Source of the DNA: Hymenobacter sp. 15J16-1T3B
GTDB lineage: Bacteria; Bacteroidota; Bacteroidia; Cytophagales; Hymenobacteraceae
NCBI RefSeq assembly: GCF_020711235.1
Contig: NZ_JAJFAV010000004.1
Location: 124,001-188,000, forward strand
Direction of reading: 5' to 3'
DNA length: 64,000 bases
A program made the position numbers and the translations under genes. Shown here one piece after another: positions 32,458 through 47,483 of this stretch. The first letter of the stretch is position 1, and the number at the start of each line of letters is the position of its first letter. The notes beneath the pieces are model-generated. The model saw only the letters and a list, made by a program, of their open reading frames with translations, searched no databases and was not told where the DNA came from.

Positions 32458-33753
<1,296 letters not shown>

Positions 33754-33796
33754 GCAGGCAAGCTGGGGTGCCGGAAAATTGATGACTCCTCCCGTC

Positions 33797-33978
33797 GTCA
33801 TTGCGAGGCGCAGCCGAAACAATCTTTCCTCCGGTAGCAGAAGCGGCAACGTTCGCACCAACTGAAAACGGCACCGCCCGAAACCAGTGTCGCTGGTTTC
33901 GGGCGGTGTTTTTTGGCTTGTGCCAGTGGCAACGTCGTGCTGCTAGAAGAAGGATTGCCGCGCTTCGCTCGCAATGAC
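33797..33978 (+). repeat. Composite palindromic repeat element, copy A
   Basis: A 182-bp element that opens with GTCATTGCGAGGCGCAGCCG and closes with the complement CTCGCAATGAC (33968-33978). Its centre is a strong hairpin (33872-33914). The stretch after the hairpin (TTGTGCCAGTGGCAACGTCG) matches copy B at 45723-45922, so the whole is a shared mobile or amplified unit, not chance. It lies 43 bp after aceA. Confidence 0.75.
33872..33914 (+). terminator. Intrinsic terminator in copy A, serving aceA
   Basis: CACCGCCCGAAACCAG (33872-33887) pairs perfectly over 16 bp with 33893-33908, followed by six T. It is the first strong terminator after aceA. Confidence 0.85.
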
Positions 33979-34002
33979 TACGGAGTAAGCCGGCGCGCAC
34001 TA

Positions 34003-34152
34003 GGGTCTGTGGACAGTAAGCAAAAAGAACGTCATGCTGAGCTTGCCGAAGCATCTCTACCGCTTCGTTGTCCGGTAGAGATGCTTTGCGGGGCTCAGCA
34101 TGACGTTCTAAAAAGCATTAGAGTGCCCTTTTGAGTTACTGTCCACACACCC
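34003..34152. mobile_element. MITE-like element with 17-bp terminal inverted repeats
   Basis: The left end GGGTCTGTGGACAGTAA (34003-34019) and right end 34136-34152 are inverted repeats with 16 of 17 matches. TA flanks both ends (34001-34002 and 34153-34154), as a target duplication within CTAG. The 150-bp element has no coding capacity; its core is another palindrome with perfect 17-bp arms (AGAACGTCATGCTGAGC at 34026-34042, complement at 34093-34109). The target type resembles that of IS5-family elements, but no transposase is present, so the parent is unknown. Confidence 0.7.
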
Positions 34153-34179
34153 TAGCGCAGCAGAAGTTCGCTATCGACC

Positions 34180-35367
34180 TTACCGCTGCGTGGCCCAGGG
34201 AAAGGGCTGGGCGATAAAGCCGTAATCGAGGCCGCGGTTGTGCGTCACGTCGCGCAGGATTTGCTGCTGCCAGGGGCGCAAGGCGGCATCCGCGCCCACC
34301 TCGATGATGTCGGCAATGAGGCGGTTGGAGAGGACCAGATTGGCCACGTAGCTATTCAGGTCCTGCGACACGGCCGTTTTCAGGTTCATCAAAAACTGCT
34401 CGCGGGCATCGGCCTGGGCGGCTTTGTCGCCGTTGAGGCGGCGGCGGAAGGGGAAGCGCCGGGCCTCGGCGGGCATGGGCGGCTCGGGCACCGGCACGAA
34501 GTTGTCGGGCGAAAACGTGAGCAGCTGGTCGAAGAACGGCGGGCGCTTCAGTTCGGGGTGCAGGCCGCGGGCGGCTTTCCAGTCGCTGGCGCTGCGCGGG
34601 GTGTCGCGCACCAGCTCCGAGAGCCGGTCGTTGCTGAACACCATGTAGGGCGGGCGGTCCAGCTCCTGGGCCACTTTGTCGCGCAGCAGGTACAAGTCGC
34701 GGAACAGGGGCAGCTCCTGGGGCATGATGCGGTACTTGCTGGCCATGCGCAGGTAGGGCCGCTCGTCGCGGGTGTAGCGCACGTCTTCCAGGGCCAGGTT
34801 TTCCTCGGCGGCCCAGTGCAGGCGGCCCAGCGCGTCGAGCTTGGCCAGCAGGCGGTCGGCCAGCTCCAGCAGGTAGAGCACGTCGTTGGCGGCGTAGATT
34901 TTCTGCGCCTCGGTCAGCGGCCGCTTCAGCCAGTTGGATTTCTGCTCGCCCTTGTCGACTTCGATGCCCAGCTCGCTCTGGATAAGGCGGCCCAGCGAAA
35001 TGTTGTTGTCCGATTCGGCCAGCAAAGTGTGCAGCACACTCGTATCGGTGATGCGGCGCACGCGCACGTTGTACAGCTCGTCGAGCAGCAAAATGTCGGA
35101 TTTGCAGCTGTGAAACACCTTTTCCACGGCCGTGTCGCCAAACACTGCCCAGAGCGGTGCCAACTCTTCGCCGGGGTTGGTGAGCGGGACCGGGTCGAGC
35201 AGAAACACGGTCTGCCCGTCGTAAATCTGAATCAGCGCCAGGTTGCGCCCGTAATGGTGGCGCATATCGTCGAACTCCAGGTCGACGGCCAGGCGGGGTT
35301 GGGTATGCAGCCAGGCCGCAGCGTCCTGAATGGCCGCGGGCGTGGTGAGGTATTGAATTTCAGCCAT
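34180..35367 (-). CDS. rnd: Ribonuclease D
   Basis: A 395-residue DEDD-family 3'-5' exoribonuclease that trims tRNA and other small RNAs. The exonuclease domain has LAVDLEFDDMRHHYGRNLAL (Exo I, DxE), VFHSCKSDILLLDEL (Exo II), and KIYAANDVLYLLEL (Exo III, YxxxD). An HRDC-type domain follows around residues 210-300 (ELPLFRDLYLLRDKVAQELD, RPPYMVFSNDRLSEL). The start MAEIQYLTTPAAIQ at 35367 is chosen over an extension to 35604, which is Arg/Pro-rich. The susC gene diverges 392 bp upstream. Confidence 0.94.
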   Translation of the reverse strand: MAEIQYLTTPAAIQDAAAWLHTQPRLAVDLEFDDMRHHYGRNLALIQIYDGQTVFLLDPVPLTNPGEELAPLWAVFGDTAVEKVFHSCKSDILLLDELYNVRVRRITDTSVLHTLLAESDNNISLGRLIQSELGIEVDKGEQKSNWLKRPLTEAQKIYAANDVLYLLELADRLLAKLDALGRLHWAAEENLALEDVRYTRDERPYLRMASKYRIMPQELPLFRDLYLLRDKVAQELDRPPYMVFSNDRLSELVRDTPRSASDWKAARGLHPELKRPPFFDQLLTFSPDNFVPVPEPPMPAEARRFPFRRRLNGDKAAQADAREQFLMNLKTAVSQDLNSYVANLVLSNRLIADIIEVGADAALRPWQQQILRDVTHNRGLDYGFIAQPFPWATQR

Positions 35368-35759
35368 TAAAGCGAATGTTGGCCACGCAGGCGCGGAGCG
35401 GCCAAATGCCGAAGTCCGGCGCCCGGATTGGGTAAAGGTAGGCAGGAGCGCGGGCCAATTCCAACGGCCCGGCGAAACGAAACGGGCCCGACGCGCGCGG
35501 GCGCTGCACGTACCGCCTTGCCCCGGTGCGACGAGGGATTTGAAAAAAAACTTAGCCGTTGGACTTTGTAAAGAATCAAGGTCGTAGGTATGAGCTAACC
35601 GCAAGAAAACTTGCGTGATAGTCGAAACACCACAACGTTTGTTATAGTACTGCTAAGTTGGTGTGAAATGGCTGCAAACGTTGCCAGTTCGGCAACAAGT
35701 ATGCATGCCGATTTCCAGGTTTTAAATTAGCAACTCACTCACCTACCTAACAGCCACCA
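35368..35759. other. Intergenic region between rnd and the third susC
   Basis: Holds the divergent promoters. I found no exact TAnnTTTG on the plus strand; TTTG occurs at 35638-35641. A perfect small inverted repeat GTTGCC-AGTTC-GGCAAC lies at 35680-35696, 64 bp before the susC ATG, and might be an operator or a hairpin in the leader. On the minus strand TACCTTTA near 35435 is one base from the -7 consensus for rnd. Nothing else is recognisable. Confidence 0.4.
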
Positions 35760-38759
35760 ATGAAAAAGAACTTACTGCTTTCCCTGGCCCTTGCGGCGCC
35801 GGTGGCGGTGGTAGCCCAGACGCGCCCTGTGAGCGGTCGGGTTACGGCCGTAGCGGACGGCACCGGGCTCCCGGGCGTGACGGTGCTCGAACGCGGCACC
35901 AACAACGGCGCTAGCACCGATGCCGAGGGCAATTTCCGCCTCACCGTGCAGCCGGGTGCCACGCTGGTATTCAGCAGCATCGGCTTTGCTACCCAGCAGG
36001 TTGCCGTGGGCGACCAAAGCACGCTGAACATCAAGCTGCAGGCCGACCAGACCCTGCTGAACGAAACGGTCATCGTGGGCTACGGCACCCAAGCCAAAGC
36101 CGACCTGACCGGCTCCGTTACGCAGATCAGCACCAAAGAGGTGGAAAACGTGCCGGTGCAGAGCTTCGAGCAGGCCATTCAGGGCCGTACGCCGGGCGTC
36201 AACATCAGCCAGACCTCGGGCAAGCTGGGTGCCGGCCTGCAGATCCGGGTGCGCGGCTCTTCGTCGGTGACGGCCTCCAACCAGCCGCTGTACGTGATTG
36301 ACGGCATTCCCGTGACCTCGCAGGACGCCAGCTCCGACACCGAGCCGCTGAACCCGCTGGCCGACCTGAACCCGAACGACATCGAGAGCATCAGCATCCT
36401 GAAAGATGCCTCGGCTTCGGCCATCTACGGGTCACGCGCCTCCAACGGCGTGATTCTGGTGACGACCAAGAAGGGCCGGCAGGGCCTGACCAAGGTGAAC
36501 GTGGGCTACTACGTGGGCACGAGCACGGCCACCAAGAAGCGCAAGTTTCTGAACGCCGACCAGTACAAAGAGCTGTTCGGCGAAGCCTTCAACAACTCGG
36601 GCTACATCGGCCCCGACCCCGACACGCAGTACCCCACGCTGGCCGACGCGTTTGCCACCGAGGCCGGCATCGACTACAACTCGCCCTACAACAGCGACTG
36701 GGTGGGCGCCGGCCTGCGCCGCGGCCACATCTCGCAGTACGACTTCAACGTGAGCGGGGGCGACGCCAAAACGCGCTTCTACCTCTCGGCCAACTACAAC
36801 GACCAGAAGGGCATCATCCTCGGCAACCGCTACCGCCGCGGCTCGGCTCGCCTGAACCTGGACCACAGCATCCGCGACAACGTGAAAGTGGGGCTGAACT
36901 TCTCGCTGACGCGCTCCGTCAACGACCGGGTATCGGAAGACAACGCGTTTTCGAACCCGATTCAGCTGAACGCGCTGCCCCCGCTGCAGGCCATTCGCAC
37001 CGAGGACGGCAAGCTGAACCAGGCCACGCTGTACTACAACAACCTGCTGGACCAGGAAAACGGCCGCAACCGCGCCGGCAACTACCGTTCCTTTAGCACG
37101 GCCTTCCTCAGCTACGAGCCCGTCAAGGGCCTGACGCTGCGCACCGAGGCCGGCGCCGACTTCCTGAACCTGAACGAGGACCTGTACCGCGCGGCCGGCA
37201 CCCAAGACGGCGGCAACACCGGCTACGGCTACTCCAACCAGGTGCAGGTGGTGAACTACACCACCAACAACACGGTGACCTACAACCGCACCGTGGCCGA
37301 CAACCATAACTTCGACGCGCTGCTGGGCTTCTCGTTCCAACGCTCGGCCACGCAGCAGACCTCGGCCGAAGGGCGCGGCTTCCCGAACCCGGAGTTTACC
37401 AAAATCAACAGCGCGGCGGTGAAAACGGCCGGCAGCGGCTCTTCGCTGAGCGAATTCTCGTTCATCTCCTTCTTCGGCCGCCTCAACTACGCCTTCAAGA
37501 ACAAGTACCTCGTGTCGGGCAGCGTGCGCCGCGACGGGTCCTCGCGCTTCGGCAGCGACAACCGCTACGGCACCTTCGGGGCCGGTTCGCTGGGCTGGGT
37601 GGTATCGGAAGAAGGCTTCCTGCAGGACAACAAGGTGCTGAACTTCCTGAAGCTGCGCGCCTCGTACGGGGTGACGGGTAACGCCGAAATCGGCAACTAC
37701 TCCTCGCGTAGCCTCTACTCGGCCATCTTCTACGCCGACCAAGCCGGCGTGACGCCCAACACCAGCCTGGGCAACCCCAGCCTGACCTGGGAAACGACCA
37801 CCCAAACCGACTTGGGCGTGGAATTTGGCTTCCTCAACAACCGCATCAACGGCGAGGTGGACGTGTACCAGAAAAACACCAAGGACCTGCTGCTGAACCG
37901 CCAACTGCCCTACACCGGCGGCTACAGCGTCATCACTGAAAACGTCGGCTCGCTGCGCAACCGCGGCCTGGAAATTTCGCTCAACGGCCTCGTCGTCGAC
38001 AAAGCCGTGAAGTGGAACGTGGGCGGCAACATCTCCTTCAACCGCAACGAGATTACCGACCTGGTGGAGCCCATCATTGCCGGCGGCAATACCCTGGCGC
38101 AGGTGCGCGAAGGGGAGCCCATCGGCGTGTTCTGGGGCCGTAAGTACGCCGGCGTCGACCCGGCCAACGGCGACGCGCTCTACTACACCGCCGACGGCGG
38201 CACCACCAACCTGCCCTCGCAGGCCGTGCAGCAGAAGGTGGGCAACCCCAACCCCAAGTACACCGGCGGTGTGAACACCTCCGTGTCGTGGAAAGGCCTG
38301 GACTTTACGGCCCTGGGCCAGTTCGTCTACGGCAACGACATCTACAACACGGCCGGTGTGTACCAGTCGGTGAACGGGGACTACTTCGACAATCAGACAG
38401 TGGACCAGCTCCAGCGCTGGCAGAAGCCGGGCGACATCACCAGCGTTCCGCAGGCCCGCCTCTACGGGGCCAACGGCACGGCGGTATCGTCGCGCTGGGT
38501 GACGGGCGGCTCGTTCTTCCGCGGCAAGACCTTCACGCTGGGCTACACCGTGCCGGCCGAGCTGAGCAAGAAAGGCTACCTGAGCTCGGCGCGCATCTAC
38601 GTGTCGGCCCAGAACCTGTTTACCATCACCAACTACGACGGCTACGACCCGGAAGTCAACACGGCCACGTTTGGCGGCGCCAACTACGTGCTCGGCCACG
38701 ACTTCTACACGCCCCCGCTGAGCAAAACCTTCATCATCGGCGTGAACCTGGGTCTGTAA
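35760..38759 (+). CDS. SusC/RagA-family TonB-linked outer-membrane transporter
   Basis: A 999-residue protein with signal peptide MKKNLLLSLALAAPVAVVAQ, cleaved near residue 20. A carboxypeptidase-regulatory-like domain covers about 22-100 (PVSGRVTAVADGTGLPGVTV, SSIGFATQQVAVG). The plug domain has NETVIVGYGTQAKADLTGSV, IRVRGSSSVTASNQPLYVID, GIPVTS, DIESISILKDASASAIYGSR and GVILVTTKKG. A beta-barrel follows to the end (IIGVNLGL). It uses the classic DIESI-LKDASA-AIYGSRA motif. A SusD gene follows 21 bp later. No enzyme or regulator of a polysaccharide utilisation locus adjoins. Confidence 0.95.
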   Translation: MKKNLLLSLALAAPVAVVAQTRPVSGRVTAVADGTGLPGVTVLERGTNNGASTDAEGNFRLTVQPGATLVFSSIGFATQQVAVGDQSTLNIKLQADQTLLNETVIVGYGTQAKADLTGSVTQISTKEVENVPVQSFEQAIQGRTPGVNISQTSGKLGAGLQIRVRGSSSVTASNQPLYVIDGIPVTSQDASSDTEPLNPLADLNPNDIESISILKDASASAIYGSRASNGVILVTTKKGRQGLTKVNVGYYVGTSTATKKRKFLNADQYKELFGEAFNNSGYIGPDPDTQYPTLADAFATEAGIDYNSPYNSDWVGAGLRRGHISQYDFNVSGGDAKTRFYLSANYNDQKGIILGNRYRRGSARLNLDHSIRDNVKVGLNFSLTRSVNDRVSEDNAFSNPIQLNALPPLQAIRTEDGKLNQATLYYNNLLDQENGRNRAGNYRSFSTAFLSYEPVKGLTLRTEAGADFLNLNEDLYRAAGTQDGGNTGYGYSNQVQVVNYTTNNTVTYNRTVADNHNFDALLGFSFQRSATQQTSAEGRGFPNPEFTKINSAAVKTAGSGSSLSEFSFISFFGRLNYAFKNKYLVSGSVRRDGSSRFGSDNRYGTFGAGSLGWVVSEEGFLQDNKVLNFLKLRASYGVTGNAEIGNYSSRSLYSAIFYADQAGVTPNTSLGNPSLTWETTTQTDLGVEFGFLNNRINGEVDVYQKNTKDLLLNRQLPYTGGYSVITENVGSLRNRGLEISLNGLVVDKAVKWNVGGNISFNRNEITDLVEPIIAGGNTLAQVREGEPIGVFWGRKYAGVDPANGDALYYTADGGTTNLPSQAVQQKVGNPNPKYTGGVNTSVSWKGLDFTALGQFVYGNDIYNTAGVYQSVNGDYFDNQTVDQLQRWQKPGDITSVPQARLYGANGTAVSSRWVTGGSFFRGKTFTLGYTVPAELSKKGYLSSARIYVSAQNLFTITNYDGYDPEVNTATFGGANYVLGHDFYTPPLSKTFIIGVNLGL

Positions 38760-38780
38760 TTTTTTGTCGCCTCAACTGAT

Positions 38781-40208
38781 ATGAAAACGATATTTTTCCG
38801 CTCCGCCGTGGCCCTCTCGCTGGGCCTCACGCTGGGCCTGACTGCCTGCGAAAAGCAACTTGATCTGGACCCGCGGCAGTCGGTCGATGCCGCCACGGCG
38901 CTTGACTCCGAAGCCAAGGTGGGCAGCGCCGTCGTGGGCCTCTACGCCAAGCTCGACGACCCCTCGCTCTACGGCACCCAATTGCTGCTGATTCCGGAAA
39001 TTCTGGGCGGCAACGGCTACCTCTCGTGGCAGGGCTCCTTCACCACTTACCGCGACCTGCTCAACCGCACCACCAACTCGCTCAACGGCCTGGCCGAAAG
39101 CACCTGGCGCTTGGCCTACCAGAATATCAACCAGGCCAATTTGGTGATTGATGCGCTGCCCGTGGTGGCTACGCCCGACCTGAAGGCCCAGTACGAAGGC
39201 GAAGCCCGCTTTATCCGGGCGGATATGCTCTTTGAGCTGGTACGCCTCTACGCCCAGCAGTACAACTCGGCCACGGCCGGCACCGAGCTGGGCGTGCCCC
39301 TGCCGCTGGCTGCCAACCGCACCCTGACCCAGGCCGACACCGACCTGCCCCGCGCTACCGTGGCGGCCGTGTACGCCCAGGTCATCACCGACCTGGAGGC
39401 GGCCATCCGCCTGCTGCCCGAGGACAACGGCACCCGCGCCTCCAAGTACACCGCCGAAGCACTGCTGGCGCGCGTGTACCTGCAGCAAAACCGCTACGCC
39501 TTGGCCGCCGCGCAGGCCGAAGACGTCATCAACAACAGCAACAAGGCCCTCTCGCCGACGCTGGTGGCGGTGTTCCGCAACCGCAACTCCTCGGAGTCGC
39601 TGTTTGAGATTCAGCAGAACGACCAGAACAACGCCGGCACCGCCAACAACGGCTTGGCCACGCTCTACGCCAACATCGGCCAGCTGGGCCGCGGCGACAT
39701 CCGCGTGCTCGGGGGCCTCGTGAACCAGTACGAAGACAGCGACGCCCGCGGCACCGACTCGCTCACGTTCAACTTCACCCGCAAGCTTATTTACGTGGGC
39801 GACGGACCGACGCGCGGCAGCAACCAGCTGCGCTCGGGCAAGTGGACGGCCTACGGGCAGAACATCCCGGTGATTCGCCTCGCCGAGATGTACCTGATCC
39901 GGGCCGAAGGCCGTCTGGCCGCCGGCAACACTACCGGCGCCCTCGACGACGTGAACACCGTGCGCGAGCGGTCGGGCGCGTCCGAGCTAACGACGATTTC
40001 CCGCGAAGACATCTGGCGGGAGCGGCAGCTGGAGCTGGCGTTTGAGGGCTTCCGCCTGCACGACATCAAGCGCACCGGGCAGCCGCTGGAGTACGCCGGC
40101 GCGGGCGGTACCGTGACGGTGCCCAGCAACAGCCCGCGGCTGGTGCTGCCCATTCCGCAGCGGGAGCTCAACGTGAACCCCGCCCTCACGCAAAATACCT
40201 CGTACTAA
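38781..40208 (+). CDS. SusD/RagB-family outer-membrane lipoprotein
   Basis: A 475-residue surface lipoprotein. The signal peptide MKTIFFRSAVALSLGLTLGL leads to a lipobox LTAC with Cys23, followed by EKQLDLDPRQSVDAATAL, a common SusD start. TPR-like helices follow (YEGEARFIRADMLFELVRLY; ALLARVYLQQNRYALAAAQA). The RagB C-terminal signature is IRLAEMYLIRAEGRLAAGNT, DVNTVRERSGASEL, RQLELAFEGFRLHDIKRTGQ and LPIPQRELNVNPALTQN. It should bind substrate for the porin upstream. A terminator follows 22 bp after the stop, so the operon has two genes. Confidence 0.95.
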   Translation: MKTIFFRSAVALSLGLTLGLTACEKQLDLDPRQSVDAATALDSEAKVGSAVVGLYAKLDDPSLYGTQLLLIPEILGGNGYLSWQGSFTTYRDLLNRTTNSLNGLAESTWRLAYQNINQANLVIDALPVVATPDLKAQYEGEARFIRADMLFELVRLYAQQYNSATAGTELGVPLPLAANRTLTQADTDLPRATVAAVYAQVITDLEAAIRLLPEDNGTRASKYTAEALLARVYLQQNRYALAAAQAEDVINNSNKALSPTLVAVFRNRNSSESLFEIQQNDQNNAGTANNGLATLYANIGQLGRGDIRVLGGLVNQYEDSDARGTDSLTFNFTRKLIYVGDGPTRGSNQLRSGKWTAYGQNIPVIRLAEMYLIRAEGRLAAGNTTGALDDVNTVRERSGASELTTISREDIWRERQLELAFEGFRLHDIKRTGQPLEYAGAGGTVTVPSNSPRLVLPIPQRELNVNPALTQNTSY

Positions 40209-40229
40209 AACCAAACGTAGCTGAACAGC

Positions 40230-40266
40230 AAAAAGCCGCTCCGGAAGTTCCGGAGCGGCTTTTTTT
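40230..40266. terminator. Bidirectional intrinsic terminator
   Basis: A near-perfect palindrome with 17-bp arms (40230-40246 and 40248-40264; core GCCGCTCCGGAA) bounded by A5 and T7. It separates the susD gene from the converging hypothetical gene at 40286. Confidence 0.92.
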
Positions 40267-40285
40267 GTGCTGAACGAACCGCGCG

Positions 40286-40756
40286 CTAGTCTTCGTCTTC
40301 TTCGTGCGGGGCGTCGAAGTCCAGGTCGTCGACCAGCTCGGAGGCTTCCTGAATGACGGCGTCCATGGCCGGCATGGTGTCCGCGTCGAGGGTGCGCTCG
40401 AAGAGATGCAGCAACTGCTCGCCTTCCTCGTTGACGTACAAATCGGTGTAGAGCCGCTCGAAATGCTTGGCGTCCTTGGTAATAACGGCGTCAATCTGCT
40501 CGATGCTGTTGGCCGTGAGGGCGCGGTGCAGCACCTGCTGCACCTGCCGGCTTTCGTCATGGTCGCCGAGGTCGGCCAGGGCTTTCATCAGGCTCATGGC
40601 CACCAGCAGGCGCACGCGCTCGAAGCGGAAGCCCTGCTCGCGGGCCGGGGCGCGCTGCAAGTCCTGGTAGGCCTGAAAATCGGCCGAAGGAAGGAGGGCA
40701 GGCGCATCTTGGCGAAAAGCGGCGTGCAGCAGCTGCTGAAACAGGGTAGCGGACAT
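40286..40756 (-). CDS. Conserved-looking hypothetical cytosolic protein with acidic tail
   Basis: A 156-residue protein without signal peptide or membrane helix, predicted mainly helical (MSATLFQQLLHAAFRQDAPA at the start; VRLLVAMSLMKALADLGDHD in the middle). The C terminus is strongly acidic (DLDFDAPHEEDED). I do not recognise the family. Evidence for a real gene: a normal start, a good terminator after it, a codon pattern like its neighbours, and no rival frame. On its upstream side the small membrane protein gene at 40899 diverges. Confidence 0.65.
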   Translation of the reverse strand: MSATLFQQLLHAAFRQDAPALLPSADFQAYQDLQRAPAREQGFRFERVRLLVAMSLMKALADLGDHDESRQVQQVLHRALTANSIEQIDAVITKDAKHFERLYTDLYVNEEGEQLLHLFERTLDADTMPAMDAVIQEASELVDDLDFDAPHEEDED

Positions 40757-40898
40757 CGGCAGGAGAAGGCAGAAGAAGATGCAAAGGAACGCAAATGCCG
40801 GCAGCCCGGGGGCATCGGCCGCGCGGGTTTTGCCGTACGTCTGAGCCCGGCGCCGCGCGGGTGCCGGGTCTGATTGTCCACTTTACGGTTGTTTCTCG

Positions 40899-41162
40899 AT
40901 GACGCACAAGTCCAAATGGTTGTTGTTTGCCCCGAGCGGGCTGGTCGTAATTGGGTTCGGCACCTGCTTGGTGCAGTGGGCCTCCGAGATGAAGCGCAAC
41001 GGCGAACCGACGATGCAGTGGGTGGCCGCTGGCACCTTGGCGCTGGGCGTGTTCAACGCCGGCCTGAGCTTGTTTGGCCGCGGCGTGGCCGAGAGCGTGC
41101 TGTATCAGATTCGGGAAAAACCCGCCGAAAACCCGCCCGCCCCGACTTCGCCGGCGAAGTAA
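40899..41162 (+). CDS. Small two-helix membrane protein, unknown function
   Basis: An 87-residue protein with two hydrophobic segments, about 8-28 (LLFAPSGLVVIGFGTCLVQW) and 41-60 (VAAGTLALGVFNAGLSLFG), and a Pro-rich C-terminal tail (NPPAPTSPAK). No family recognised. TACGGTTG (40884-40891), one mismatch from a -7 element, lies 7 nt before the ATG. It precedes the M14 peptidase gene by 198 bp but probably has its own transcript. Confidence 0.65.
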   Translation: MTHKSKWLLFAPSGLVVIGFGTCLVQWASEMKRNGEPTMQWVAAGTLALGVFNAGLSLFGRGVAESVLYQIREKPAENPPAPTSPAK

Positions 41163-41360
41163 GTCGCGGATAGCCGAGCCGGCCGTCACGGCTTGGCTTT
41201 GGTGCGGCTGGCTCGGCTACGGCGGCAGCAACTCGCCGCCGGCTCAGGCCCGGGCAGGTGCAACGGGCAGTACGCGTCGGGTGTGCGCGGCGAAGCTGCC
41301 CGCTGTTGTACTTTCGCTGGCCTTCCCCACTTTCCCACTCATTTCGCGCCCGGTCTTTTC

Positions 41361-43934
41361 ATGATCCGACCTTTTCTGCGCCAGTTGCAAGCCGTAGCCG
41401 TCGGTTTGCTGCTCTCCGTTCCCAGCCTAGGCCAGTCAACGGCAGCGCCGCAGACGCCCGCGCAGTTTCTGGGCTACGCGCTCGGCAGCCGCTTCACCTA
41501 CCACGCCGATGTGCTGCGCTACGCCGACTACCTAGCCCGGCTCTACCCCGAGCGGCTGCGCGTGCAGCCCTACGGCAAAACCTACGAGGGCCGGCCGCTG
41601 GAAGTCGTGCAAGTAGCTTCGGCCCGCAACTTGGGCCGCCTCGACGACATCCGCCGCAGCAATCTGCGCCGCACCGGCCTCGAAACTGGCCAGCCCGACG
41701 CCGACCAGCCCGCCGTGGTCTGGCTTAGCTACAACGTGCACGGTAACGAGGCCGTGTCGTCGGAAGCGGTGCTGCAGGTGCTCTACGACTTCGCCAACCC
41801 GCAGAACGCCGACGCGCAGGCCCTGTTGGAGAAGGTGGTGCTGCTCATCGACCCTTGCGTGAACCCGGACGGCCGCGAGCGGTACGTGCAGTGGTACGGC
41901 CGCGTGGCCGCCGCGCCCACCAACGCCGCCCCGCTGAGCTGGGAGCACCGTGAGCCGTGGCCCGGCGGCCGCTACAATCACTACCTCTTCGACCTGAACC
42001 GCGACTGGGCCTGGCAGACGCAGCGGGAAAGCCAGCAGCGCATTGCCCTCTACAACCAGTGGCTGCCGCAGGTGCACGCCGATTTCCACGAGATGAGCCC
42101 GGATGCGCCGTACTACTTCTCGCCCGCGGCCAAGCCCTTCCACGAGGACATCACGGCCTACCAGCGCAAGTTTCAGAACCGCATCGGCGACTACAACCGG
42201 CAAACCTTCGACAAGAACGGCTGGCTGTACTTCACCCGCGAAACCTACGACCTCTTCGCGCCCAGCTACGGCGACACCTGGCCGTCCTTCAACGGGGCCA
42301 TCGGCATGACTTACGAGCAGGGCGGCTCGGGCCGGGCCGGCGTGCGCTACGTCAAATCGGACGGCGACACGCTCACGCTCGCCCAGCGCATTGCCCACCA
42401 CCACGCCGCCAGCTGGGCCACCATCCGCGCCGCCGCCGACCACCAGCCCGAGCTGCTGAAGGAATTCGGCCAGTACTACGCCGATGCCCGCCAGAAGCCG
42501 CGCGGGCAGTACAAAAGCTTCGTGGTGAGCGGCCCGGCCGAGCGGCTGGCGCCCCTGGAAGAGTACTTGCGCCAGCAGCAAATTGAGTTCGGCCACCTGG
42601 GGCAGAAGCAAAAAACCAACGCCTACAACTACACCACCGGCCGGCGCGAAGCCGTGACCCTGCAGCCGCAGGACGTGGTGGTGAGTATGTACCAGCCCAA
42701 ATCGACGTTGGTGAAAGTGCTGTTCGAGCCGCAGTCGGCCCTGGAAGACTCCCTGACCTACGACATCACCGCGTGGTCGTTGCCCTACGCCTACGGCCTG
42801 CAGGGCTACGCACTGACGGGTAAGTTGTCGGGAAAAGAGGGGGCAGCCGGCAGCAAGCCGCAAGCCAAAGCGGCTGGGCTGGCAACTGACAACGCACAAC
42901 CCGCCGCCAACACGCCCTACGCCTACATTGCCCGCTGGAACTCCCTACGCGACGCCCGCCTGCTGGCGGCGCTGCTGCAGCGGCAGATTCGGGTGCGGGT
43001 GGCCTACCAGCCCTTTGAAGCCGGCGGGCGCAAGTTTCAGCCCGGCGCGCTCATCGTTACCCGCGGCAACAACGAGGGCCTGGCCCGCCGCTTCGACGCG
43101 GTGGTGCGCCAGCTGGCCGATTCGGTGGGCGCCGAGCTAACGGCGGTGCAGACCGGCTTCGCCACCACCGGCTCCGACTTGGGCTCCAGCAACGTGCACA
43201 GCGTGGGCCGGCCCAGCGTGGCGGTGCTGGCCGGCGCCGGCGTCGACCCGTCGGCTTTTGGCGAGGTCTGGCACTTCTTCGAGCAGCAGCTGGGCTACCC
43301 CGTCACCGTGCTCGGCACCGATTACTTCGCCTCCGTGCCGCTGACCAAGTTCGACGTGCTCATCCTGCCCGACGGCAACTACGCCGACGCCCTGCCCGAG
43401 CGACAATTGGAGAACCTCAAGACCTGGGTGCGCGCCGGCGGCCGCCTCATTGCCCTGGAAGGCGCCATGGGCTACCTGGCCGGCAAGAAGGACTTCGCCC
43501 TGAAGGCCAAAGCGCCCGATACCACCCGCACCCGCAAGCCCGACCCGACCCGGCAGCTGCGCCGCTACGCCGCCGCCGAACGGGAGTCGCTGCAGGAGCT
43601 GGTGCAGGGCAGCGTGTACCCGGTGCAGCTCGACAACACCCACCCCCTGGCCTTCGGCTATGGCGAGACGTACTACGCCCTGGTGCGCAGCCCACTGAAT
43701 TACCAGTACCTCGGCGAAGGCAGCTGGAACGTGGGCGTATTACGCAAGGGGCAAGCTGCGGCGGGCTTTACCGGCAGCCAGGCCCGCCGCAAACTCTCCG
43801 ATACCGTGGTACTGGGCGTGCAGGAAATGGGCCGCGGCCAAGTCGTGTACCTCGGCGACAACCCGCTGTTCCGGGGCTTCTGGCACGCAGGCAAGCTCTT
43901 GTTCAGCAACGCGGTGTTCTTCGTGGGCCAGTAA
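41361..43934 (+). CDS. Exported M14-family zinc carboxypeptidase
   Basis: An 857-residue secreted metallopeptidase. The signal peptide spans about residues 1-24 (AVAVGLLLSVPSLGQ). The M14 domain has the zinc ligands His127 and Glu130 in YNVHGNEAVSSEAVL, a distal His in HADFHEMSPDAP (239 or 243), and the catalytic Glu319 in MTYEQGGSGRAG. After it, a long region ends with a class-I glutamine-amidotransferase-like segment (DVLILPDGNYADALP, VRAGGRLIALEGAMGYLAG). Such M14 proteins are common in Bacteroidetes. I start at MIRPFLRQLQ, since the frame open from 41193 lacks a signal peptide. No type IX secretion tail is evident. A TACTTTCG near-match lies 44 bp upstream. Confidence 0.9.
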   Translation: MIRPFLRQLQAVAVGLLLSVPSLGQSTAAPQTPAQFLGYALGSRFTYHADVLRYADYLARLYPERLRVQPYGKTYEGRPLEVVQVASARNLGRLDDIRRSNLRRTGLETGQPDADQPAVVWLSYNVHGNEAVSSEAVLQVLYDFANPQNADAQALLEKVVLLIDPCVNPDGRERYVQWYGRVAAAPTNAAPLSWEHREPWPGGRYNHYLFDLNRDWAWQTQRESQQRIALYNQWLPQVHADFHEMSPDAPYYFSPAAKPFHEDITAYQRKFQNRIGDYNRQTFDKNGWLYFTRETYDLFAPSYGDTWPSFNGAIGMTYEQGGSGRAGVRYVKSDGDTLTLAQRIAHHHAASWATIRAAADHQPELLKEFGQYYADARQKPRGQYKSFVVSGPAERLAPLEEYLRQQQIEFGHLGQKQKTNAYNYTTGRREAVTLQPQDVVVSMYQPKSTLVKVLFEPQSALEDSLTYDITAWSLPYAYGLQGYALTGKLSGKEGAAGSKPQAKAAGLATDNAQPAANTPYAYIARWNSLRDARLLAALLQRQIRVRVAYQPFEAGGRKFQPGALIVTRGNNEGLARRFDAVVRQLADSVGAELTAVQTGFATTGSDLGSSNVHSVGRPSVAVLAGAGVDPSAFGEVWHFFEQQLGYPVTVLGTDYFASVPLTKFDVLILPDGNYADALPERQLENLKTWVRAGGRLIALEGAMGYLAGKKDFALKAKAPDTTRTRKPDPTRQLRRYAAAERESLQELVQGSVYPVQLDNTHPLAFGYGETYYALVRSPLNYQYLGEGSWNVGVLRKGQAAAGFTGSQARRKLSDTVVLGVQEMGRGQVVYLGDNPLFRGFWHAGKLLFSNAVFFVGQ

Positions 43935-43949
43935 ATTGGCGAAAAGACC

Positions 43950-43991
43950 AACAAAAAGCCCCGCCAGATTGCTCCGGCGGGGCTTTTTGTT
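43950..43991. terminator. Bidirectional intrinsic terminator
   Basis: AACAAAAAGCCCCGCC (43950-43965) is perfectly complementary to 43976-43991 over 16 bp, with A5 and T5 runs. It lies between the converging peptidase and small secreted protein genes. Confidence 0.92.
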
Positions 43992-44007
43992 GTCCAAGCA
44001 ACGAGGC

Positions 44008-44259
44008 TTAGTTCACTACGTCTTCGGCTTTGTTGCCGACTTTTTTGGCGCCTTTCTTCACGGCGTGGCCGGTTTTCTGGGCTCCTCTCTTCACCACGTG
44101 GCCCGTTTTCTTGGCGCCCTTTTCTACGCCGTGCGCGGTAGCATCTACGGTGCGGCCGGCCTTGGTTTGCGAGGGAGCGGTTTGGGTAGGCGTATCTTGG
44201 GCCGAGGCCGTCAGGCTGGTCAGCGCTACGGCGGCCAGCAGCATCATGAGCTTTTTCAT
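44008..44259 (-). CDS. Small secreted Lys-rich protein with 11-residue LEA-like repeats
   Basis: An 83-residue protein. The signal peptide MKKLMMLLAAVALTSLTASA is cleaved before QDTPTQ. The mature part has an 11-residue repeat: EKGAKKTGHVV, KRGAQKTGHAV, KKGAKKVGNKA (about 47-79). Such 11-mers, rich in Lys, Gly and Ala, recall late-embryogenesis-abundant (group 3) proteins that shield proteins or membranes during drying. The role is inferred from pattern only; it could also be a DNA- or envelope-binding peptide. A strong terminator follows. Confidence 0.7.
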   Translation of the reverse strand: MKKLMMLLAAVALTSLTASAQDTPTQTAPSQTKAGRTVDATAHGVEKGAKKTGHVVKRGAQKTGHAVKKGAKKVGNKAEDVVN

Positions 44260-44375
44260 AGGAGGTCGAGGTCAGGAGTTAGGTGACCTGCCTTCTACGA
44301 ACGGCCTGTCCGAAGGATGCCCGCGGCGGGGCTGGGGCGGCGCGCATTCAGCAAAACTTCATCCGGTGCGGGCGG

Positions 44376-45608
44376 CTACGGCAGCAGCAGCGAACTGTCG
44401 CCGTAGCTGAGGAAGCGGTAGTCGTGCTGCAGGGCGTGGTCGTACACGCGGCGCCAGTCGGGGCCGAGTAGGGCGGCCACCAGCAGCAGGAGCGTGCTTT
44501 CGGGCTGGTGGAAGTTGGTGATGAGGCCCTGCACCACGCGGAAGCGGTAGCCCGGCGCAATCAGCAGTTGGGTGCTGGCCTGCGCCGCGTCGTCGCCGCG
44601 GCGCTCTAGTTCCGTCAGCAAGGCTTGCAGGGCGGTGGCGGTGGGTACATCCTCCCGCCCTTCGTAGGGCTCCCACTGCTGCACCTGCCCGCTGAGGCTG
44701 CCGCCGCGCGCCACTTGGCACCCCAGCCAGTACAGGCTTTCGAGGGTGCGCAGGCTGGTGGTGCCCACGGCAATGACGGGCCGCGGCGCATGCGCCAGCA
44801 GCTGCTGCAGCACCGCCCGCGTGGCACTGATGGGCTCGGCGTGCATGGGGTGCTCAGCCATGCGCTCGGCCTTCACGGGCTGAAACGTGCCCGCGCCCAC
44901 GTGCAAGGTCAGCTGCGCCGACTGAATGCCGCGCCCCGCCAGCTCGGCCAGCACGGCATCGGTGAAGTGCAGGCCGGCAGTGGGGGCGGCCACGGCGCCG
45001 TCGTGGGCGGCGTACACGGTTTGGTACCGCTCATCGTCTTGGCCGGTGGCTTCGCGGCCGAGGTAGGGCGGCAGCGGCAGCCGGCCCGCGCCGGCCAATA
45101 CCTGCGCAAACGGCAACTCGGCGGGCTGCCAGCGGAAGCGAATCAGCGAGCTGCCTTCTTCGGCGGCCACGCGCTCGGCTTCCAGGGTGGCCGGCTGCCC
45201 GTCGGGCGTGCTGAAGCTAACCTGCACCGGGCCGGTTTTCCAGCGTTTGCCGTTGCCCACGAGGCAGCGCCAAGTGCACTCCGCGGTTTGCTGCATAGCC
45301 GGCTCGATGGCGCGGTGCGGGGCCACCGGCTCCAAGCAAAATAGCTCGATCTGTCCGCCGGTGGGCTTGTGCAAGTAGAGCCGAGCGCGCACCACTTTGG
45401 TGTTGTTGAACACCAGCAGCGCATCGGGCGGCAGCAGCGCGGGCAGCTCCCGGAAATGGTGGTCGGCCAGCGCGCCGCTGCGGTACACGAGCAAGCGTGA
45501 GCCGTCACGGTCGGGCAGGGGCGCCGGAGCAATGCGCTCGGCGGGCAAGGCGTAGGTGTAGTCCAGGATGGAAATCTGGCGCGGATCGGCAGCAGGCGGG
45601 GTATTCAT
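44376..45608 (-). CDS. queA: S-adenosylmethionine:tRNA ribosyltransferase-isomerase
   Basis: A 410-residue enzyme that makes epoxyqueuosine in tRNA wobble position 34 from SAM. It shows ILDYTYALPAERIAPAPLPD, DALLVFNNTKVVRARLYLHK, GRLPLPPYLGR, ERYQTVYAAHDGAVAAPTAG, LHFTDAVLAEL, LTLHVGAGTFQPVKAER, and LITNFHQPESTLLLLVAALLG. It is longer than E. coli QueA (356), as in many Bacteroidetes. The start MNTPPAADPRQ at 45608 follows a perfect -7 element by 6 nt and is chosen over an upstream extension to 45656. Confidence 0.96.
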   Translation of the reverse strand: MNTPPAADPRQISILDYTYALPAERIAPAPLPDRDGSRLLVYRSGALADHHFRELPALLPPDALLVFNNTKVVRARLYLHKPTGGQIELFCLEPVAPHRAIEPAMQQTAECTWRCLVGNGKRWKTGPVQVSFSTPDGQPATLEAERVAAEEGSSLIRFRWQPAELPFAQVLAGAGRLPLPPYLGREATGQDDERYQTVYAAHDGAVAAPTAGLHFTDAVLAELAGRGIQSAQLTLHVGAGTFQPVKAERMAEHPMHAEPISATRAVLQQLLAHAPRPVIAVGTTSLRTLESLYWLGCQVARGGSLSGQVQQWEPYEGREDVPTATALQALLTELERRGDDAAQASTQLLIAPGYRFRVVQGLITNFHQPESTLLLLVAALLGPDWRRVYDHALQHDYRFLSYGDSSLLLP

Positions 45609-45614
45609 GGTGCG

Positions 45615-45622
45615 CAAAGGTA
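45615..45622 (-). promoter_or_regulatory. Probable queA -7 element
   Basis: The minus strand reads TACCTTTG, an exact TAnnTTTG match ending 6 nt before the ATG at 45608, so the mRNA would be leaderless or nearly so. Confidence 0.55.
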
Positions 45623-45722
45623 ACCTCCGTACGGACGATGCCGCGCCAGCGCCCAAGAAGCCGGCATCACACCCAGCTCCCAGTGCGGAAAGGTCGTCCC
45701 TTCAGCCGCCGTTCACCCCAGC

Positions 45723-45922
45723 GTCCTTGCGAGCGGAGCGCGGCACCCGCAGGAAGGCGTAGCCAATCCTTCCTCCAAGAGCACCGCCTCTACAATACCT
45801 GCTACCCGAAAACGCCCCCGCCCGAAACCAGCGTCACTTGGTTTCAGGCGGGGGCGTTTTAAGTCTGTGCCAGCTGTAGCGTTGTGCTGCGGGAGGAAGA
45901 TTTGATTCGTCCTCGCAATGAC
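45723..45922. repeat. Composite palindromic repeat element, copy B
   Basis: A 200-bp element opening GTCCTTGCGAG and closing CTCGCAATGAC (45912-45922). The inner hairpin (45809-45860) has AAAACGCCCCCGCC pairing with GGCGGGGGCGTTTT. The segment TGTGCCAGCTGTAGCGTTGT after the hairpin matches copy A (33797-33978), as does CCGCCCGAAACCAG inside the hairpin. It fills most of the gap between queA and the methyltransferase gene. Confidence 0.75.
45809..45860 (-). terminator. Hairpin terminator in copy B, serving the methyltransferase gene
   Basis: The 22-nt arms 45809-45830 and 45839-45860 pair with one mismatch around an 8-nt loop, and on the minus strand the stem ends in TTTT. It lies 93 bp after the methyltransferase stop. 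Confidence 0.7.
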
Positions 45923-45953
45923 GGCTGATGCTTTGGTATCGAGGTGAGCGTGG

Positions 45954-46727
45954 TTACCGCTGGAATATCAGCAGGTGCTGCTGCGGCAGGGACTTGTTGT
46001 TCTCCACGAACTTCAGACCCACGGCTTCCATCTCGCGGCGGGCCTGCTCCTCACTCATGCGGTGAATGCGCTTGATGGGCAAATTCGGGTCTTCGGCGCG
46101 GTATTCCACCAGGGCTACGCGGCCGCCGGGCTTCAGGGAGTTGCGCACGGCACGCATCATCTCGCGCGGGTGGTCAAACTCGTGGTAAGCGTCGACGATG
46201 AGCACCAAGTCGAGGGTGCTGGCGGGCAGGTTGGGGTTGCGCACGGTGCCGAGTACGGGCTCCACGTTGGTGATGCCGCGTTCTTTGCTGGCCTCGCGCA
46301 CTTTTTCCAGCATTTCGGGCTGAATATCGACGGCCAGCACCTTTCCTTGGGGAACCAGCGGGCTCATGCGAAAGGAGAAGTAGCCGGTGCCGGCGCCAAG
46401 GTCAGCTACCACGTCGGTGGGCTTCAGGTGCAGGTTGCGCAGCAGCACGTCGGTGCCTTCCTGCTGCTGGCGGTCGGAGCGTTCCAGCCAGGGCGCGGCC
46501 TCGTGGCCCATCACGTGGGCAATCTGCCGGCCCATGTAGTACTTACCGATGCCATTGGGGTCCTGGGGAGCTTTGCGCTGGTAGCCGGCGGTGTCAGGGG
46601 CGGCGCCGAGGCGGCGCTGCGCGGCTAGGCCCGCGCTGCTTTCCGCAATGGGCGTTTGGGTGCACGACCAAGCCAGGGCGGGAGCCAGCAAAGCCACTGG
46701 CAGGCGAAATCGGAACGGAATGAGCAT
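45954..46727 (-). CDS. Exported class I SAM-dependent methyltransferase, predicted lipoprotein
   Basis: A 257-residue protein. MLIPFRFRLPVALLAPALAW is followed by SC at 21-22, which looks like a lipoprotein signal with Cys22. The Rossmann-type fold has motif I VVADLGAGTGYFSFR, then VLAVDIQPEMLEKV (acidic ribose-binding end of strand 2), LVLIVDAYHEFDHP, and SLKPGGRVALVEYR. The family is clear; its substrate is not. Placement outside the cytoplasm is odd because SAM is cytoplasmic. If the N terminus were really internal, the enzyme would be cytosolic. The start at 46751 would add 8 residues before the signal. Confidence 0.82.
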   Translation of the reverse strand: MLIPFRFRLPVALLAPALAWSCTQTPIAESSAGLAAQRRLGAAPDTAGYQRKAPQDPNGIGKYYMGRQIAHVMGHEAAPWLERSDRQQQEGTDVLLRNLHLKPTDVVADLGAGTGYFSFRMSPLVPQGKVLAVDIQPEMLEKVREASKERGITNVEPVLGTVRNPNLPASTLDLVLIVDAYHEFDHPREMMRAVRNSLKPGGRVALVEYRAEDPNLPIKRIHRMSEEQARREMEAVGLKFVENNKSLPQQHLLIFQR

Positions 46728-46922
46728 AGGTAAGTGCAAAGAAAGCGGCATTGGGCTAACAGCGCACGTACCGAGTACGTTCGCGGCCCAGGATTAACCC
46801 TGGCCGCGCCGGTGCCGTATGGCCTGCCAACGCCGCCCGCGAGCGGTTTCGTTCGTCCGTGTATAATTTGCGGCCGTAGCACTGCTGACAGCGCCTTTCT
46901 TTCACCTCTTTCCTTTTTCCAG

Positions 46923-47483
46923 ATGAAGCACTTTGCCCACCTGTTCGGCCAGCTTGCCAGCGCCGCGCTGGTTGCCTTGGCTCTCACCGGCTGCGGCCGC
47001 GGCGACTACGCCATGCTGCCCAAAACCAGCCCCTACCACGAAACCCACACGGCCGCGCGCGTGGCCCCGGCGCCCCAGCCCGTAGCCGTGGCTGAACCCG
47101 CCGCCGAGCAACCCGTCGCCCCGGCCGCCGTGGTGGCCGCGCCAGTAGCCGAGCCCGCCGCTCCCGCACCGGCCGCTAAGGCCGCTACCGTGGCTGCCAA
47201 GCCGGTTACCAAGCCCAGCTTTGCGCAGCAGGTACTGGTGAAGAAAATGCTGCACAAGGCCGAGAAAATGGCCGCTAAAACCCAGCTGAAAAAACACCAG
47301 AATGCCGCTTCCGCCGAGCAGGTGCAAGCGCAGAGCCATCTGCGTTTGGGCATCATTCTGCTGGCCATCGGTCTGATTCTGGCCCTGTTCTCGGGCATCA
47401 ACGCTATCTTCGGCGTGCTCGGCACCATTGCCATCATCATCGGCATTGTGCTGCTGGTGCTCTGGTTGCTGGAGCAGGTATAA
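46923..47483 (+). CDS. Lipoprotein with Pro/Ala-rich linker and C-terminal two-helix membrane domain
   Basis: A 186-residue protein. The signal MKHFAHLFGQLASAALVALA ends in lipobox LTGC (Cys24). The mature start DYAMLPKTSPYHETHTAARV is followed by a Pro/Ala/Val-rich linker, a Lys-rich helix (KKMLHKAEKMAAKTQLKKHQ) and a hydrophobic end of about 45 residues (two helices; LGIILLAIGLILALFSGINA). The N-terminal module resembles that of the facing gene at 47559. Function unknown. Both genes converge on a shared terminator. ATAATTTG upstream (46862-46870 region) is one mismatch from a -7 element. Confidence 0.75.
   Translation: MKHFAHLFGQLASAALVALALTGCGRGDYAMLPKTSPYHETHTAARVAPAPQPVAVAEPAAEQPVAPAAVVAAPVAEPAAPAPAAKAATVAAKPVTKPSFAQQVLVKKMLHKAEKMAAKTQLKKHQNAASAEQVQAQSHLRLGIILLAIGLILALFSGINAIFGVLGTIAIIIGIVLLVLWLLEQV

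Follow-up and report, generated by a model that had tools for sequence, protein, structure and literature searches.

That REPs may end transcription is an old suspicion. One of their superfamilies, the CGTC REPs, has to our knowledge no enzyme assigned to it, and its function is not settled. The available part of the text of Di Nocera, De Gregorio and Rocco 2013 (PMC3733652) describes these repeats as carrying a GTC tag and an AT-initial palindromic stem, as forming head-to-head dimers, and as lying in intergenic regions by the 3' ends of genes. According to the same part, they are reported from Bacteroidetes among other phyla and have no dedicated transposase, and neither the word "terminator" nor the name Hymenobacter appears there. 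In a 2025 REP survey, REPs were told from terminators by their T tails, and such sorting could hide composites of the type described here. The open-access literature yielded nothing relevant on this element in Hymenobacter or on its head sequence.

The window, a stretch of 64,000 nucleotides of DNA from Hymenobacter sp. 15J16-1T3B, contains two copies of such a composite. An earlier note, made from the sequence alone, had called it a two-copy repeat. Both copies are real and lie where they were located, but two is the count within the window, and the genome holds at least 53. The shared arms, hairpin core and internal segment that it named are found in the sequence of both. By a 50-copy profile, the limits of the copies are 33774-33999 and 45708-45940; they were widened because an outer box, CGGTtcACC.GCC / GGC.GGTgaACCG, flanks the GTC...GAC arms externally. 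The best explanation, which we regard as quite probable, is a head-to-head dimer of CGTC REPs that has a bidirectional terminator in its spacer and now serves as, and replaces, the 3' terminators of genes. The two copies and their neighbours are as follows:

32458..33753, plus strand: isocitrate lyase family gene, left of copy 1, with its end 21 bp from the element (Pfam PF00463, E 3e-115)
33774..33999, plus strand: copy 1, full unit, in a convergent gene pair (profile match 189 bits, E 4.7e-57)
33797..33824, plus strand: left CGTC-type REP head of copy 1, GTCATTGCGAGGCGCAGCCGAAACAATC (sequence; 50-copy alignment)
33870..33914, plus strand: central hairpin of copy 1, GGCACCGCCCGAAACCAG...CTGGTTTCGGGCGGTGTT, then a T run (terminator-like site, 19 pairs; covariation over 50 copies)
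33953..33978, minus strand: right CGTC-type REP head of copy 1, inverted, GATTGCCGCGCTTCGCTCGCAATGAC on the plus strand (sequence; alignment)
34020..34112, plus strand: palindrome of a second, distinct REP-type family, GTCATGCTGAG...CTCAGCATGAC, beside copy 1 (24 or more genomic places)
34180..35367, minus strand: 3'-5' exonuclease and HRDC gene (ribonuclease D-like), right of copy 1 and convergent (Pfam)
44376..45608, minus strand: queuosine biosynthesis protein gene, left of copy 2 (Pfam PF02547, E 3e-100)
45708..45940, plus strand: copy 2, full unit, between tandem minus-strand genes (profile match 162 bits, E 7.3e-49)
45723..45768, plus strand: left REP head of copy 2, GTCCTTGCGAG...CAATC, with an additional segment inside it (sequence)
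45809..45860, plus strand: central hairpin of copy 2, AAAACGCCCCCGCCCGAAACCAG...TTGGTTTCAGGCGGGGGCGTTTT (sequence; minus-strand RNA fold of the unit, z -4.9)
45904..45922, minus strand: right REP head of copy 2, shortened, GATTCGTCCTCGCAATGAC on the plus strand (sequence)
45954..46727, minus strand: methyltransferase gene, right of copy 2 and upstream of it, with its stop 13 bp from the element (Pfam)

The 50-copy alignment gives the order of the unit from the outside in: the outer box CGGTtcACCggCC, a REP head, an inner arm, the central hairpin, a second inner arm and the inverted head. The profile-matched copies are such inverted head pairs. The family head is of the CGTC type and reads GTCATTGCGAG, a variable part and GCAATC; copy 2 opens with GTCCTTGCGAG instead of GTCATTGCGAG. 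GTC stands at the start of 87 of 100 heads, and the preceding base in the heads is C in 52, A in 39 and T in 7; the CGTC tag is thus accompanied by a frequent AGTC variant. The palindromic stem of the head opens with AT pairs (ATTGC...GCAAT), as in the CGTC superfamily; the common variant has, by eye, five pairs and an interrupted inner stem. For the superfamily, a continuous stem of 8-9 bp and a loop of 4-5 bases are described. The inner arms differ between left (CTAGTAGCACCGCCG..) and right (CTCGCGGCACGACG..CTGGCAGAAACC), and the unit therefore has an orientation. The central core reads AAAAC.GC.CCGCCCGAAACC, a loop and GGTTTCGGGCGG.GC.GTTTT. Because an A run precedes the stem and a T run follows it, the stem is usable on both strands. 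In copy 1, the standard terminator-like match covers 33870-33910, with 19 pairs followed by TTTTGG, and the AAAA ahead of the stem is the T run of the opposite strand. Since the heads, their head-to-head arrangement and the placement of the copies fit the CGTC-REP superfamily, the element is filed as a CGTC-REP dimer with terminator cargo.

The family was counted in the source genome (6.33 Mb in 42 contigs), and the census is a lower bound of at least 53 non-coding copies of about 225 bp each. BLAST with copy 1 as the query gave 74 strand-matches. A pattern of the terminator core matched 32 times per strand, and a reversed control pattern did not match at all. Pooling of both searches gave 50 near-full-length places, all of which were recovered by a profile search, each at E < 1e-30, with a profile built from most of those 50. 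Three further copies lie at C40:234578, C38:323753 and C42:172561. Both window copies fall into this one family, so they are diverged copies of one unit, as had been proposed. The unit also occurs in at least 21 copies in each of three sister species (G001, G003, G006), with 1-13 matches in four other Hymenobacter genomes and none or almost none in other genera. Among the titled loci listed from the species collection, high-scoring units belonged to Hymenobacter only, and the other matches were bare hairpins; a plasmid collection gave no match. The description of the unit as non-coding and amplified thus holds.

The central stem alone is clearly held as structure. Over 50 sequences, 90.9% of the cells in its 22 pairs are standard, and 16 of the 22 pairs have changed on both sides. 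Covariation is 0.269 versus 0.111 in shuffles, none of 500 shuffles matches it by any of five measures, and a slide of the alignment by one column lowers pairing to about 50%. When the halves of a copy were matched against halves of other copies, the terminator preferred its own partner strongly (z 10.9) and the REP arms weakly (z 3.0), while no such matching was seen in the inner arms (z -1.4) or the outer flanks (z 0.5). As only the terminator halves strongly match their own partner, the terminator appears to be the part that is kept. A GC-rich stem-loop with a T run was found by a simple detector in 28 of 31 convergent copies, although the T runs are short, usually TTTT. A simple terminator scan of 32500-47000 showed no excess (15 sites versus 15.1 in shuffles) and did not list copy 2.

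The relatives show what lies at a site when the element is absent. Related units occupy the orthologous gaps of both window copies in G001 and G003, and no unit is present there in G002, G004, G005, G006 or G007. At the site of copy 1, each of these five genomes has a hairpin of the ordinary kind and a T run instead. Nineteen more sites were compared: the unit was present in 28 orthologous gaps, reduced to remnants in 2 and missing from 16. Another terminator was present in 12 of 13 element-free orthologous convergent gaps. In the convergent gaps of the source genome, which have a median of 44 non-element bases, the terminator lies inside the element in 28 of 31, and anything terminator-like lies outside it in 7 of 31. 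Usually, there is one terminator per gap, of either kind. Since empty gaps nearly always have another terminator and filled gaps seldom a second one, the unit seems to substitute for the native terminator. At L082, an ordinary terminator lies in a gap of 78-79 bp in G001 and G003, and the source genome has the element in a gap of 298 bp, which reads as a clear replacement of one predicted terminator by the other. The earlier note had tied its reading to further copies and empty sites in relatives, and BLASTN, copy counts and orthologous gaps revealed both. Its word "inserts" is in keeping with the insertion-minus sites, for which a putative act of transposition may account.

Copy number and presence or absence between species suggest that the element has moved. 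Several species have the same gap filled (in G003, 10 of 12 resolved convergent sites), far above what we would expect from about 50 independent insertions, so many insertions are probably ancestral. They could not be dated by sequence, as orthologous copies are no closer than paralogous ones: between genomes, identity is 0.75-0.81 for orthologous and 0.77-0.80 for non-orthologous units (z -0.2 to 1.2), although the flanking genes of orthologous units are mostly 84-98% identical. Orthologous units agree only partially in orientation. An early burst with later divergence and continued exchange between copies both fit these data. Several routes of mobilisation were considered and rejected. The source genome yielded no Y1_Tnp gene, and Y1_Tnp loci in relatives are not flanked by element heads, which argues against RAYT. 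In relatives, genes for 23S-IVS four-helix-bundle or GxxExxY proteins do lie between inverted repeats, but these belong to other families, and element heads never flank such genes. Insertion into native hairpin loops was hinted at by eye at L082, but the flanks have no general inverted symmetry (z 0.5). No target-site duplication was detected (edge direct repeats versus mismatched pairs, 2.36 vs. 2.24 and 2.20 vs. 2.20), and no parent insertion sequence was found.

It might be asked whether whole units move at all, or whether REP-sleeved terminators stay where they are and are homogenised through recombination or gene conversion among themselves. The identities of same-site and different-site units would be expected from such a process, as would the missing target-site duplication and transposase link. 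On the other hand, sites filled in one species are empty in a sister species and have another terminator there, copy number ranges from about 1 to more than 50 within the genus, and the whole asymmetric unit travels together, with copies nested in another palindrome family (L148, L155, L156). Homogenisation in place is therefore considered unlikely, and the copies may rather have spread by REP-like mobilisation than by recombination alone.

The placement of the copies was assessed with gene calls from our own simple codon-usage caller rather than from a published annotation. The 50 copies lie in 31 convergent, 17 tandem and 2 divergent gaps, versus 9, 64 and 38 among gaps of 100 bp or more taken as controls from the same regions (Fisher p 1.4e-12 for the convergent excess). 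Forty-eight of the 50 copies adjoin at least one gene 3' end, in agreement both with the claim that the unit lies downstream of genes and with the intergenic, convergent or co-directional placement of CGTC REPs; most tandem copies lie close behind the stop of the upstream gene. For 37 copies from other Hymenobacter genomes, chosen because their core is intact (including those of H. jeollabukensis, H. edaphi, sp. CRA2 and H. gummosus), the distribution was 27/10/0, versus 9/73/34 in the control (p 2e-14). In the source genome, the hairpin is weak or wrecked in both divergent copies (-18.0 and -19.8 kcal/mol versus a convergent mean of -42). For copies in tandem gaps, the T run facing the required direction is not superior to the opposite one (Wilcoxon p 0.41); directional selection was thus not detected, and the case for a terminator role is much weaker for these copies. 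The earlier note had missed that the arms belong to a known REP class, that convergent gaps are preferred and that terminators are replaced rather than added.

Convergent gaps tolerate insertions of any kind better than other gaps do, and to that extent the bias has nothing to do with termination. This touches on another reading, in which the unit is a selfish or inert REP/MITE dimer placed where it does least harm, with a hairpin kept for its own spread as single-stranded or cruciform DNA. REPs are generally located at 3' ends (Di Nocera 2013, PMC3733652), and covariation could arise at the level of DNA. The comparison with the sister REP family GTCATGCTGAG of the source genome, which has no terminator core, cuts both ways. 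Its copies, distributed 5/18/0, likewise avoid divergent gaps (0/23), but convergent concentration is confined to the terminator-bearing family (p 0.002 versus 31/17/2). The strong copy-by-copy pairing restricted to the terminator stem and the rule of one terminator per gap also speak against a merely selfish unit, for which the chances appear quite low. Selection, beyond insertion tolerance alone, may thus contribute to the convergent bias.

A family of structured small RNA genes, or a stabiliser of mRNA 3' ends in place of a terminator, is very improbable. The folds of whole units are indeed much more stable than those of shuffled sequences (z -6.1 and -4.9), but an Rfam search of the unit gave no family at threshold, the inner arms and outer flanks have no within-copy covariation, and the stem, preceded by an A run and followed by a T run, suits either strand. 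Related species do have terminators built somewhat alike, but a chance likeness of two ordinary terminators has next to no probability and is refuted by the copy number, with 50 near-full-length relatives at E < 1e-30 and no match of the reversed core pattern.

The preferred reading is therefore the CGTC REP dimer with a terminator in its spacer. The unit would have been amplified within a Hymenobacter clade and would have settled at gene 3' ends, mainly between convergent genes. Its central hairpin (AAAAC, a GC-rich stem and GTTTT) may end the transcription of the neighbours on either strand, and probably does so in vivo. The element would displace the ordinary terminator of a site, and selection on the stem would then keep it. 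The proposal that the unit supplies a terminator is strongly supported as a prediction, since structure, covariation, context and terminator replacement agree. A wider idea is possible but rather doubtful: the convergent-end terminators of the genus could be interchangeable mobile cassettes, in which unrelated palindromic families (the CGTC dimer, a CGGATT-type palindrome and others), each with a terminator core, occupy the same gaps, where in the course of evolution one takes over from another or from the native terminator. Some of them might be gene-less versions of elements coding for four-helix-bundle (23S IVS) or GxxExxY proteins. As the CGTC dimer carries a clear predicted terminator, gathers at convergent genes and seems to replace the native one, the notion that mobile DNA supplies the 3' ends of a cell becomes directly testable. 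The genus is culturable, its sister species are natural plus/minus pairs, and the terminator-less sister repeat can serve as a control.

Several known systems resemble the element in part. Bacterial MITEs (review PMC10969869) are likewise short non-coding inverted-repeat units with many copies beside genes; the element has the inverted repeats but neither a target-site duplication nor a parent insertion sequence, and is not counted among them. REPINs with RAYTs (GTAG REPs; Bertels and Rainey 2011, PMC3116915) also consist of two inverted REPs and a spacer dispersed as one unit, but their tag is GTAG and a RAYT (Y1_Tnp) gene flanks them; the element has neither feature. DNA uptake sequence pairs (Kingsford et al. 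2007, PMC1852404) share with it a dispersed inverted-pair repeat tied to terminators. The stem of the element differs from these pairs in being a separate core between the repeat heads. In uptake sequences, the inverted repeat itself reportedly makes the terminator stem. The closest likeness is to the CGTC REPs as described in the available part of PMC3733652, with which the element shares the GTC tag, the ATTGC..GCAAT stem, the head-to-head dimer, the 3'-end placement and the absence of a transposase link. Those REPs are tagged by CGTC (or TGTC/CCTC); in the element, about one head in two has C before GTC and most of the rest have A. The element's own features are a further outer inverted box around the heads, a long, asymmetric and well-conserved spacer, and a strong bidirectional putative terminator with compensatory changes. 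The CGTC-REP dimer is thus known, and its conserved terminator cargo is new relative to the available text of Di Nocera 2013.

Next to copy 1 of the CGTC unit, a head-to-head REP dimer with a central terminator hairpin, the window contains a second palindrome:

34020-34112 (extended palindrome approximately 34003-34156): second REP-type palindrome, GTCATGCTGAGCTTGCCGAAGCATCTC...CTCAGCATGAC, of a family distinct from the CGTC unit

Its outer arms are CTGTGGACAGTAA/TTACTGTCCACA, and it occurs in at least 24 genomic places. The match of 34020-34112 to Rfam RF02901 (AaHKsRNA41) reached 47-48 bits, below the family cut-off of 97.

A further long palindrome family, ACCACGGATT-nGACGGATT-..CGGATTTCGTGGACGATT ... 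AATCGTCCACAAAATCCGTG..AATCCGTGGT, was also observed. In the related genomes G001, G003 and G006, it fills the convergent gaps (L134, L135, L136, L146, L149, L153) whose equivalents in the window's genome hold a CGTC unit, and it encloses an ordinary terminator there. The CGTC unit is nested within such a palindrome at loci L148 and L155, and partly at L156.

Arms of the ACCACGGATT type, 39-52 nt long and 94-97% complementary, also flank GxxExxY (PDDEXK_3) genes on both sides (L198, L199 and L200, in G005, G006 and G001). Because the same arm type brackets these genes, the palindromes that lack a gene may represent non-autonomous versions of an element that carries one. Inverted repeats often flank Hymenobacter genes for 23S-rRNA-IVS four-helix-bundle (PF05635) and PDDEXK_3 proteins (L175-L205), and are built of the short periodic motifs CGTTTTTCG, CAGTTGTCAG, AATTAATAATTAAG, GGTGAGATGGTGA and CGCAGAGG. 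More than half of these genes exceed the top control gene (n = 45 controls) in bracketing score. Some of the motifs recur in gene-less stretches of intergenic gaps (L138, L164, L165).

The gap of G006 orthologous to the L072 site (L154) holds several hundred bases of extra DNA and two differing ordinary terminators. At the copy 1 site in G004 and G005 (L117, L118), a third CGTC-type REP, GTCATGTCGAGC...GAGACATCT, adjoins an intact native terminator. The native terminator is kept alongside this REP, whereas it is replaced where the terminator-carrying CGTC unit is present.
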